Positions 10,928-24,923 of a stretch of 64,000 nt of DNA are shown in pieces. Positions within the stretch are counted from its first letter, which is position 1, and every line of letters starts with the position of its first letter. Location of the stretch: positions 1,403,501-1,467,500 of the forward strand of contig NZ_AP025696.1 of NCBI RefSeq assembly GCF_027943725.1, read 5' to 3'. The stretch is from Nitrosophilus kaiyonis (GTDB taxonomy: Bacteria; Campylobacterota; Campylobacteria; Campylobacterales; Nitratiruptoraceae). The position numbers and the translations under genes are program-made. The notes under the pieces were generated by a model, which worked only from the letters and a program-made list of their open reading frames with translations, searched no databases and was not told where the DNA came from.

Positions 10928-11479
10928 TTGATAGTAGGTTTAATTGGAACGATAGAAAAAAAAGAGCCGACATTTTTACATATTAATGTAAATGGTGTAA
11001 TTTATGAAGTATTTATCTCTATAAATTGTAGCAGTGAGATAAAAGATAAAAATGTAAAGCTTCATATTTCTCACATAGTAAGAGAAGAGAGTGAATCTTT
11101 GTATGGTTTTATAGATATTAATGAAAAAAAGATGTTTGATAGATTATTGAAAATTAATGGGGTTGGACCAAAGGTAGCCATAGCTATATGCTCAACTTTC
11201 AAACCAAATACTTTTGCAAAAATTGTAAATGAAAAAAATGTATCAATGCTGAAAAAAGTTCCTGGAATTGGACCAAAGAGTGCACAAAGAATATTAGTAG
11301 AGCTTGGAGAGTTCTCTTTAGAAGAAGGGGCTCTCTCATCTTCTCATATTGAAGCACAAATGGCTTTAGAATCACTTGGATTTAAAAAAGACCAAATTCA
11401 AAAAGTTTTACAAAAATGTGAGTCAACTGATACCGCTTCATTGGTAAAAGAGGCGCTAAAAAAGATACAAAAGATATAA
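10928..11479 (+). CDS. ruvA: Holliday junction branch migration protein RuvA
   Basis: DNA-binding tetramer partner of the RuvB motor. The protein begins [12 protein letters not shown] when started at the TTG at 10928, which has GGAG at 10918-10921 about 6 bases upstream. The in-frame TTG at 10916 overlaps that ribosome binding site and is rejected. Helix-hairpin-helix motifs are visible as [16 protein letters not shown] and [15 protein letters not shown]. The flexible acidic linker and C-terminal domain III ([13 protein letters not shown]) complete a normal-length protein of 183 residues. Neighbours endonuclease V and ddl recall the order near ruvA/ddlA in Campylobacter. Confidence 0.95.
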
Positions 11480-11483
11480 GTAA

Positions 11484-11616
11484 TTTGGTTGAGTGGTTGA
11501 GTTGTTAAATAGATGAGTGGGTGAGTTGGCTATAAAACTACTTAACTAATTTAACTATTAAACCACTCAACAACTCAACTTTTTTAACCATTTTAACTAT
11601 TCTAATTTTTTTAACT
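11484..11616. repeat. Intergenic degenerate tandem repeat with inverted arms (copy 2)
   Basis: Occupies almost the whole ruvA-ddl gap. The left arm is 8-base units (AGTGGTTG, AGTTGTTA, AATAGATG, AGTGGGTG). The centre is AACCACTCAACAACTCAACT, complementary to the left arm. The right part is 9-base units (TTTAACCAT, TTTAACTAT, TCTAATTTT, TTTAACTAA). It ends just before the AAAGGAG of ddl. Confidence 0.78.
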
Positions 11617-11635: not shown

Positions 11636-12670
11636 TTGGTATATGCAATTATTTTTGGCGGAAGTAGCTATGAGCATGAGATTAGCATTGTAAGTGCGAT
11701 TGTATTAAAAGAGAAAATTAAAGAAAAAAAGATATTTATCTTTATAGATGAAAATAGAAATTTTTATCTTATCGATGAAAAAGATATGAAAGCAAAATAT
11801 TTTAGTAGTAAAAATTATAAAAATTCTCCAATTTTACATTTAAAAAAGGGTGGTTTTTATCAAAAAGCACTTTTAAAAGAGAAAAGAGTAGATTTTGATG
11901 TTGCTATAAATCTTGTTCATGGAAGAGATGGTGAAGATGGAAAATTAGCTTCACTTTTTGATTTTTTTGAAATAGATTATATTGGGCCAAGAATAGAAGC
12001 AAGTGTAATAAGTTATAACAAACATTTTACTAAAATGTATGCCGAAGAGCTTGGTATAAAAGTCATTGACTATCAAATAATTAATAAAGATAATATTGTG
12101 CCTTTAAAATTTGAATATCCGGTAATTATTAAACCTTTAAGACTTGGTAGTAGTATAGGTGTAAGTATAGTTAGAGATGATGATGAATTGAGTTATGCTT
12201 TAGATGTTGCATTTGAGTTTGATGATGAGGTAATTGTTGAGCCATTTATTGAGGGTATTAAAGAGTACAATCTTGCTGGATGTAAAGCGGGTAGTTTTAT
12301 ATTTTCTATTGTAGAAGAGCCAAAAAAAAGTGAATTTTTAGATTTTGAGAAAAAGTATCTTGATTTTTCAAGGTCAGAAAAAGTTGAAGCTGCAAAAATT
12401 CAAGATGATTTAGAAAAAAGATTAAAAGAGGCTTTTATAAAAATATATGATCCTATTTTTAGTGGCGCATTAATTAGATGCGATTTTTTTGTAAAAAATG
12501 GAGATATATATTTAAATGAGATAAATCCAATTCCAGGAAGTCTTGCAAATTATCTATTTGAAGATTTTAATACAGTTTTAAATAGATTATCTTCTAATTT
12601 AGTAAAAGAGAAAAAGATAAAAATAGATTATAACTATATCCATTCTATTCATGGAATGAAGAATAAATGA
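11636..12670 (+). CDS. ddl: D-alanine-D-alanine ligase
   Basis: ATP-grasp enzyme making the D-Ala-D-Ala dipeptide used by MurF. The TTG at 11636 is the start, with AAAGGAG ideally placed and the protein beginning MVYAIIFGGSSYEHEIS, the standard N-terminus. VHGRDGEDG, the ATP-grasp segment PVIIKPLRLGSSIGVS and the metal-binding NEINPIPG near the C-terminus are all visible. At 344 residues it matches the longer epsilonproteobacterial Ddl form. murF, which uses its product, lies about 5.5 kb downstream on the same strand. Confidence 0.94.
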   Translation: MVYAIIFGGSSYEHEISIVSAIVLKEKIKEKKIFIFIDENRNFYLIDEKDMKAKYFSSKNYKNSPILHLKKGGFYQKALLKEKRVDFDVAINLVHGRDGEDGKLASLFDFFEIDYIGPRIEASVISYNKHFTKMYAEELGIKVIDYQIINKDNIVPLKFEYPVIIKPLRLGSSIGVSIVRDDDELSYALDVAFEFDDEVIVEPFIEGIKEYNLAGCKAGSFIFSIVEEPKKSEFLDFEKKYLDFSRSEKVEAAKIQDDLEKRLKEAFIKIYDPIFSGALIRCDFFVKNGDIYLNEINPIPGSLANYLFEDFNTVLNRLSSNLVKEKKIKIDYNYIHSIHGMKNK

Positions 12671-12811
12671 GCGAGGGCAAAACAAAGTTTTAGGACAACA
12701 ACTGCTTGTTGTCTGTGCCCGAGCGAAAGCTATGAGTATATGCGAAGCCAAAATTCAATGAATTTTGTGTCTGAGCATACGAATAGCTGATTTACCTTGA
12801 AGAAAATCAAG
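12671..12811. other. Unassigned structured intergenic element (three potential hairpins)
   Basis: Immediately after the ddl stop. Hairpin 1: GACAACAA (12694-12701) pairs perfectly with TTGTTGTC (12706-12713) around the loop CTGC, enclosed by GGGCA/TGCCC (12675-12679/12716-12720). Hairpin 2 is nested: GCTAT/ATAGC (12729-12733/12783-12787), TATGC/GCATA (12739-12743/12775-12779) and AAAATTCA/TGAATTTT (12750-12757/12759-12766). Hairpin 3: CTTGA/TCAAG (12796-12811). A GAG...CGAA motif recurs four times. It could be a small RNA, a 3'-UTR structure or a mobile repeat. I recognise no named riboswitch. No T-run follows, so it is not a simple terminator. Confidence 0.55.
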
Positions 12812-12850
12812 TGAGTAATACGAACGAAGATTTTTGGTTGAATTAATTTA

Positions 12851-12897
12851 TTAAGGTGAGCATGATTAGTCATTAGTCATTAGTGATTTGAAATTTA
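12851..12897. repeat. Heptad repeat before the TRIC gene (copy 3)
   Basis: TTAGTCA, TTAGTCA, TTAGTGA, TTTGAAA in exact 7-base register from 12866. The leading TAAGGTGAGCATGATTAG resembles the start of the repeat at 24774. It sits between the structured element and the start of the next gene. Confidence 0.75.
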
Positions 12898-12913
12898 CCA
12901 AAAAGAGATAAAA

Positions 12914-13519
12914 TTGACTTTTTTAGACATAGCTGAAATTATAGGTATTGCAGCATTTGCTTTAAGTGGATTTTGGGTTGCTGTTGAAGAGAAACTGGAT
13001 TTATTGGGTCTTTTTATAATCTCTTTTTTAACTGCACTTGGTGGAGGGATAATCAGAGATGTTATAGTTAACAAAATCCCATACTCATTTATAAATTTTT
13101 TACCTTCTATTGTAGTTATTTTAGTAATTTTAATTGCATTGATTTTGAAACTTCAAAAAAATATTGATTTTAAAAAAAGAAAAATTTTTATTTTTAGCGA
13201 TTCGATTGGTCTTGTATCTTTTTCTGTTTCTGGGTCTTTGATAGGATTGGATGCGAAATTAAATTATTTTGGTGTAGTTCTTTTAGCATTAATAACTGCA
13301 GTTGGTGGAGGAATATTAAGAGATGTATTGTTAAATAGGGTTCCTATGATTTTAAAAGCTGAATTTTATGGCACTATAGCTATTATCATAGGAACATTTT
13401 TATATATTATGAATACTTTTTCATATTTAAATATTTTTACTTTATCTACAATTTTTATTTTGGGATTAATTCTTAGACTATTGGCATATTTTAAAAAATG
13501 GCATCTTCCAAAAATCTAA
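12914..13519 (+). CDS. TRIC-type (UPF0126/YicG-like) membrane protein
   Basis: 201-residue inner-membrane protein with about seven hydrophobic segments and two internally repeated halves, each carrying the family glycine/arginine motif: GGGIIRDVIVNKIP in the first half and GGGILRDVLLNRVP in the second. Such proteins form trimeric intracellular-cation (TRIC)-like channels. A glycine-export role has been proposed for some members, and the substrate here is unknown. The start is the TTG at 12914 behind an AAAGAGA box. It stands after a repeat block and is probably transcribed separately from ddl. Confidence 0.88.
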   Translation: MTFLDIAEIIGIAAFALSGFWVAVEEKLDLLGLFIISFLTALGGGIIRDVIVNKIPYSFINFLPSIVVILVILIALILKLQKNIDFKKRKIFIFSDSIGLVSFSVSGSLIGLDAKLNYFGVVLLALITAVGGGILRDVLLNRVPMILKAEFYGTIAIIIGTFLYIMNTFSYLNIFTLSTIFILGLILRLLAYFKKWHLPKI

Positions 13520-24773: not shown

Positions 24774-24923
24774 TAAGGTGAGTATGATGAGTGTGGTGAA
24801 TAGGAAGATAAGGGAGTAAAGTGATAAGGTAGTAAGGTGGTAAAAGGGGAGGGGAGTGAAGAGGTCAATTTCAAATTTTAAATTACTAATGACCAATTAC
24901 TAATTACTAATGACTAATGACTA
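24774..24923. repeat. Compound 9-base and 7-base tandem repeat between convergent genes (copy 5)
   Basis: 24781-24861 is purine-rich 9-base units (AGTATGATG, AGTGTGGTG, AATAGGAAG, ATAAGGGAG, ...). 24882-24923 is exact 7-base units: TTACTAA, TGACCAA, TTACTAA, TTACTAA, TGACTAA, TGACTAT, ending at the pdxA stop. The reverse complement of 24864-24892 matches 63117-63145 except for two central bases and the last one. Confidence 0.85.

Follow-up and report, generated by a model that had tools for sequence, protein, structure and literature searches.

A dispersed element with a conserved fold behind ddl of Nitrosophilus kaiyonis recurs at gene and CRISPR array ends of related bacteria

The 3´ end of ddl in Nitrosophilus kaiyonis is followed by a 180-nt sense-strand element that belongs to a dispersed family, the members of which share a fold kept by compensatory changes and move or are copied within genomes. 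This copy lies in a window of 64,000 nt, the whole stretch of DNA analyzed here. The family is probably a new non-autonomous mobile one, in which the fold of the sense strand is under selection and, after landing, would become an RNA structure at the 3´ end of the host transcript.

The boundaries and parts of the ddl copy are given in Table 1. The preliminary description of this locus had placed a three-hairpin element at 12671-12811, which proved too short, given that the conserved unit extends 33 bases further on the 3´ side and six bases further on the 5´ side. Two perfect 8-base stems reported there, GACAACAA/TTGTTGTC (12694-12701 with 12706-12713) and AAAATTCA/TGAATTTT (12750-12757 with 12759-12766, nested in outer stems), were found as described, while the third stem, claimed within 12811, is not the last conserved hairpin, which is hairpin E. 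The element is also, as had been noted, GC-richer than its surroundings (40.4% vs 27.7% window-wide). We interpret the GAG...CGAA motifs as the facing strands of tandem G.A mismatches within helices (TGAG/CGAA); the motif alone shows no enrichment in the window (9 found, 11.3 expected). The fold of the + strand was better than that of all 200 shuffled sequences (z = -3.97), and the fold of the - strand was equaled by one shuffle in 200 (z = -3.78). The element contains no ORF of 60 or more amino acids, and promoter-like sites are no more common than in shuffled sequence (3 found, 3.9 expected). Of the origins first proposed, a stand-alone small RNA is thus left without support, and a mobile repeat is borne out by the further copies and the insertion at the ddl site described below. 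An intrinsic terminator was considered and rejected; a G+C-rich hairpin followed by a T run is absent from the element, and the sole such site in 12400-13100 falls at 12466-12482, inside ddl.

Table 1. Parts of the element behind ddl and the neighboring genes (window positions)
Feature	Position	Strand	Remarks
Whole element	12665..12844	+	full-length match to covariance model R1, 192 bits
ddl stop codon TGA	12668..12670	+	supplied by the element's opening bases, where helix A also begins
Helix A, 5´ strand TGAGCGAGGGC	12668..12678	+	two tandem G.A mismatches
Hairpin B AAAACAAAGTTTT	12679..12691	+	
Hairpin C, GACAAC-AACTGCTT-GTTGTC	12694..12713	+	stem covarying
Near-invariant octamer AACTGCTT	12700-12707	+	caps hairpin C
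Helix A, 3´ strand GCCCGAGCGAA	12717..12727	+	
Hairpin D	12728..12788	+	outer stem AGCTAT/ATAGCT, tandem G.A steps, TATGC/GCATA, apical stem CAAAATTC/GAATTTTG
Conserved linker GATTTACCTTGAA	12789..12801	+	
Hairpin E, GAAAATC/GATTTTT and inner stem	12802..12835	+	last conserved hairpin; pairs 12802-12808 with 12829-12835
Conserved 3´ end GGTTGAATT	12836..12844	+	family consensus about GGTTARATT (GGTTR-AATT-like)
ddl, D-alanine--D-alanine ligase	11636..12670	+	host gene, upstream of the element, sense
PF03458 protein gene	12914..13519	+	downstream, co-directional

With the window copy as BLAST query, 28 places in the 1.77-Mb genome matched at E ≤ 1e-16 (73-100% identical), which answers the question of a second copy raised in the preliminary description. 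A covariance model built from 18 copies found 31 copies in the genome at E ≤ 1e-20, one of them in the window; a second window match, at E 0.96, was disregarded. Among 60 genomes, the genome of the window included, 13 matched by BLAST. From the order, 398 genomes were sampled, of which at least 36 (in at least 9 of 87 genera) matched the model at E ≤ 0.01, and at least 19 of 397 genomes sampled from the phylum matched at E ≤ 0.001, all of them from the order of the window, a result to be read with the fact that the share of other orders in the phylum sample is not stated. Since six candidates per genome were scored in the order and phylum searches, these searches give minimum copy numbers and may have overlooked some genomes. 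Below, f1 denotes the family (taxonomic) of the window, G000 its own genome and G004 a genome of the same genus. An exact-pattern match was also found on the Nitratiruptor MAG contig WGBB01000153.1, with coordinates and score identical to those of the G021 copy, by which f1 would be the Nitratiruptor family.

The makeup of the copies varies between groups. Hairpin B is missing, by eye, from the f10 copies compared, and two f11 copies (L120 and L121) retain mainly helix A and hairpin C. Weak matches in genus g13 of f11 (at least one per genome in G031, G164, G184, G296, G392, G427, G437, G444, G453 and G471, and at least four in G471) are possibly a minimal form of the element. Separately, we noted a second, shorter family of ~95 nt with the AACTGCTT hairpin and a TATGCGA..GAGCATA-like step (L092, L027, L038, L104, L116 and L175), which adjoins CRISPR repeats and is also nested within copies of the main family. 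Many copies in the window genome are flanked by low-complexity sequence made up of 7-9-base units (ataagg, gtgag, ttagtca), which occurs in the window at 11470-11600, 12860-12890 and 24807-24923; the copies read in relatives are without such runs, except near one G003 copy.

The conservation of pairing was examined in an alignment of 103 matches, in which 57 of the 63 modeled pairs showed changes on both sides, as expected of the conserved pairing that the preliminary description had left to be checked. Cells with both-side changes numbered 1236 vs 413 in shuffles, the covariation value was 0.462 vs 0.148 in shuffles and 0.04-0.10 in slid controls, and 82.0% of cells were paired vs 61.9% in shuffles and 33-46% with slid partners. 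The shuffle test overstates the effect, given the related rows and an alignment that had been fitted to the model. An 86-row alignment gave the same picture. RNAalifold, applied to 40 copies aligned with plain MAFFT, independently found both-side changes in 20 of 35 pairs. Modeled pairs that are usually not formed belong largely to the tandem G.A steps (TGAG/CGAA); these had been entered as pairs in the model. The changes are clearest for hairpin C, where stems such as GACAAC, CAAGC, GAAGAC, CGAT, GGAGGAT and AAAAC all have their complement on the opposite side and AACTGCTT is constant. These data show that the fold is under selection and kept by compensatory changes, though exchange among copies or a mechanism that makes inverted repeats could account for part of the covariation. 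Among the 46 best pairs, G.T cells outnumbered A.C cells (115 vs 56; 22 pairs vs 8), which indicates the sense strand as the folding one, be it RNA or single-stranded DNA; within the window genome alone the excess was small (38 vs 25). A pseudoknot between CAAGG in the hairpin D loop and CCTTG in the linker is attractive by eye, with CTAGG/CCTAG in the G002 and G003 copies, and was rejected because it is present in 22 of 85 distinct rows vs a shuffle mean of 21.5.

The element at ddl is an insertion, as ddl and the same downstream gene adjoin in G004, where the TAA of ddl abuts the ATG; in the window, 243 bases lie between them. The left and right flanks of the window copy, ATAAATGAG and ATAAAATTGAC, are imperfectly similar to one another and to the G004 junction, a hint of a target duplication of about 9-10 bases. 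Other sequence follows ddl in G001, G002, G003, G005, G006 and G008, with no element in the 330 bases read. For two copies of the window genome, the same shorter related element is nested behind hairpin C while the outer flanks differ; most simply, the composite was copied. Together, the many copies, the empty site and the nested insertions show that the element has moved or been copied inside genomes.

Dispersed, nested and tandem copies and a gapless empty site could also be produced by purely selfish DNA resembling REP/BIME or IS200/IS605 ends, with the fold serving only a trans-acting transposase, as its single-stranded DNA substrate, and the position at gene ends reflecting no more than avoidance of coding sequence. 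Hairpins of the d(GCGAAGC) type and tandem G.A steps are stable in DNA too, and both strands of the element fold far better than shuffled sequence. We nevertheless regard this explanation as unlikely, in part because the genome has no Y1 transposase: the search for mobilizers covered PF01797 and PF00078, and no PF01797 match was found in the window genome at E ≤ 0.01, with the control matching in 6 of 14 genomes. A RAYT origin was rejected on this absence of Y1_Tnp. Reverse transcription was rejected in the same way, as no reverse transcriptase (RVT_1, PF00078) was found in G000 at E ≤ 1e-5; among the 13 element-bearing f1 genomes (nine others of the family gave no match to the element), RVT_1 was present in four (G003, G006, G008 and G012). 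Carriage by plasmids or phages was likewise set aside, with no match for the window copy among either, nor for parts of an f11 copy or for a G012 copy. One pattern search of viral contigs gave two stretches, which the model did not confirm, and another gave none.

The position of the copies relative to genes differs between groups. For 30 copies in the window genome, the upstream gene was in sense in 22, antisense in five and unclear in three, and the six genomes of genus g12 (f10) gave similar numbers (22 sense, one antisense and seven unclear among 30 copies). The 25 copies of G002 and G003 were without strand bias (10 sense, nine antisense and six unclear), as would be expected of selfish DNA. 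We then asked how often a stop codon falls 0-14 nt inside the element, compared with a null of 7.4% for random non-coding placement, derived from the window alone. This was the case for 20 of 30 f10 copies (p = 4e-16), 7 of 25 G002/G003 copies (p = 0.002) and 4 of 30 copies in the window genome (p = 0.18, not above chance); these p-values take no account of orthology or tandem arrangement between copies, and the f10 figure does not stand for 20 separate events, because the copies are spread over about 10 host genes. By the sense bias, a preference for gene 3´ ends is shown in two of the three groups, the window genome and g12, and in g12 most copies also have the stop codon inside their first bases. 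That the f10 element starts near the stop codon, and not merely outside genes, argues against the purely selfish explanation. By NCBIfam annotation, the host genes include fabI, guaA, rpsK, hemN, moaA, nusG, genes for a PorB-like subunit and a TRAP permease, rny, rlmH, ppk, infB, frr, grpE, lpxA, a LysR regulator gene and ddl; at infB, the stop codon falls just before the element.

For the f10 copies, the 5´ strand of helix A passes through the end of the host gene. At fabI it is entirely coding, and at guaA, rpsK and other sites it contains the final codon together with the stop codon and continues beyond them. The 3´ strand varies by site to match, with ACAAATTCC/GGAATTTGT, ATAAAATCC/GGATTTTAT and ACAAAATGC/GCATTTTGT at fabI in different species and AGTAAAGCC/GGCTTTACT at guaA. 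Such matching could suggest that the element moves at the RNA level, selecting and marking the points where transcription units end, and that it is installed by base pairing with the target end, in the way that the 5´ exon is paired by group I and II introns, or that this pairing is re-formed afterward by selection. We consider this highly doubtful; were it true, mRNAs and CRISPR precursor RNAs would share one 3´-end module.

Several sites have been retained between species. We found fabI in eight of nine f10 genomes, with a readable 3´ end in seven, and the element was there in six of these seven; the fabI end of G088 is readable and without the element, and in G123 the element is cut by the contig end after 52 nt. 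Across five genomes at this site, 20 of 53 scored pairs had both-side changes, five had one-side changes and 28 were invariant in the model-fitted alignment, with an unpaired cell in four of the 53. Exchange with other copies explains the matched changes in helix A poorly here, because the 5´ strand is fabI coding sequence. At guaA, three aligned copies gave 42 invariant, two one-sided and six both-sided pairs, and the element is present in a fourth genome too. Judged by C-terminal residues, the LysR site is common to G000, G002 and G003, with the sequence between stop codon and element differing in G000, and the grpE and lpxA sites are common to G002 and G003. The retention of the fabI and guaA sites with compensatory changes speaks against purely selfish DNA. 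It would be consistent with a cis-acting RNA that benefits the host, through the processing or stability of mRNA 3´ ends, and spreads by recombination and gene conversion without transposition proper, as would the sense bias in two of the three groups and the hairpin C sequence partly common to the loci of one genome, as in concerted exchange. The empty ddl site in G004 and the antisense copies in G002 and G003 are difficult to reconcile with such an RNA, as are copies inside CRISPR repeats with part of the repeat on either side, and we judge it quite improbable.

The CRISPR copies were seen on inspection of ten arrays or remnants of f1 with the repeat type GACCCGATTTNAAGGGGATTGAGAC (three in G002, one in G003, three in G006, two in G008 and one in G012), of which one G002 array is a single recognizable repeat and some share trailers and so are not independent. 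Eight of the ten end downstream, by repeat orientation, in a sense copy of the family that starts inside the last repeat. Of the other two, one terminates in a short, related element (matched weakly, at 23 bits, in reverse) and the other in nothing. For one G008 array, a short related element and a repeat fragment precede. The remainder of the repeat follows the element in G002, with TTTGAG doubled, and this copy has AGTGAGC/GCTCACT ends; the window-genome copies examined are without the right-hand repeat. Copies L102 and L107 of f7, in sense, and L104 of f10, in antisense, are likewise found next to repeats of this kind, and the window genome has no exact repeat of the GACCCGATTTNAAGGGGATTGAGAC-type pattern. 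Near these arrays, we also observed reverse transcriptase ORFs of 725-761 codons that end about 1.8 kb before CRISPR arrays (G006:C1:1113020, G008:C1:1304202 and G012:C51:8660), compatible with RT-Cas1 fusions. At L174 (G003), a long ORF, by eye resembling an IS110-type transposase, interrupts a CRISPR array between repeats at 625 and 2073.

We therefore return to the mobile family with a selected sense-strand fold, for which the following course of events can be proposed. The sense strand would fold such that helix A, with its tandem G.A steps, encloses the AACTGCTT-capped hairpin and often a second hairpin, followed by two further hairpins. The element inserts or is copied, in two of the three groups largely in sense behind genes and, in its home family, often from inside the last CRISPR repeat. 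Once landed, it would be transcribed as part of mRNAs and CRISPR precursors, where a protein may recognize the AACTGCTT hairpin and the element would act as a 3´-end RNA structure; the same recognition may serve mobilization in trans. Given that the fold is kept by compensatory changes, we infer that a protein-recognized 3´-end RNA structure is its most likely role. The copies, members of a strongly covarying nucleic-acid family outside Rfam 15, occur where housekeeping genes (fabI, guaA, rpsK, nusG, frr, grpE and ddl) and CRISPR arrays end. If transcribed, it would be a 3´-end module common to mRNAs and CRISPR RNAs and, if chiefly mobile, its own stop codon can render an insertion harmless; either way, the defined hairpin cap AACTGCTT offers a handle for finding a partner protein.

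Comparison with known families gave no identity. The absence of an Rfam match, suspected by eye in the preliminary description, held for the window and nine loci: with Rfam 15, nothing in the window scored above the gathering score, and at E ≤ 5 the hits in the nine loci were confined to CRISPR repeats and a single weak miRNA match, all of them outside the family copies. What was found is thus a multicopy element with conserved pairing and no hit to a known family. No description of such an element in this bacterial group was seen in the open library searched, and the family is apparently undescribed. ERIC elements of enterobacteria, transcribed intergenic imperfect palindromes of about 127 bp, may be alike in general kind. 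REPs have a GT(A/G)G head, after which comes a short palindrome (PMC2817692); in f10 copies of the present family, GTAG is found within hairpin E and is absent from the head. The family resembles REP/BIME sequences more loosely, as dispersed extragenic hairpins with a modular layout, and unlike them is a 180-nt multi-hairpin unit with a consensus start AAGTGAGCGAGGG that is without the GT(A/G)G head, in a genome without a Y1 transposase. Closer are the MITE-like Correia/NEMIS, RUP and Caulobacter CIR repeats, for some of which, according to PMC2229807, RNA folds help regulate adjacent mRNAs, CIR having a conserved two-arm RNA fold. Like these repeats, as described there, the family is shorter than 200 bp, encodes no protein and has many dispersed, largely intergenic copies, whereas end repeats and a doubled target are found here only at some CRISPR-end copies. 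Set against the same description, the overlap with stop codons, the location at CRISPR array ends and the covariation across families within an order distinguish the element.
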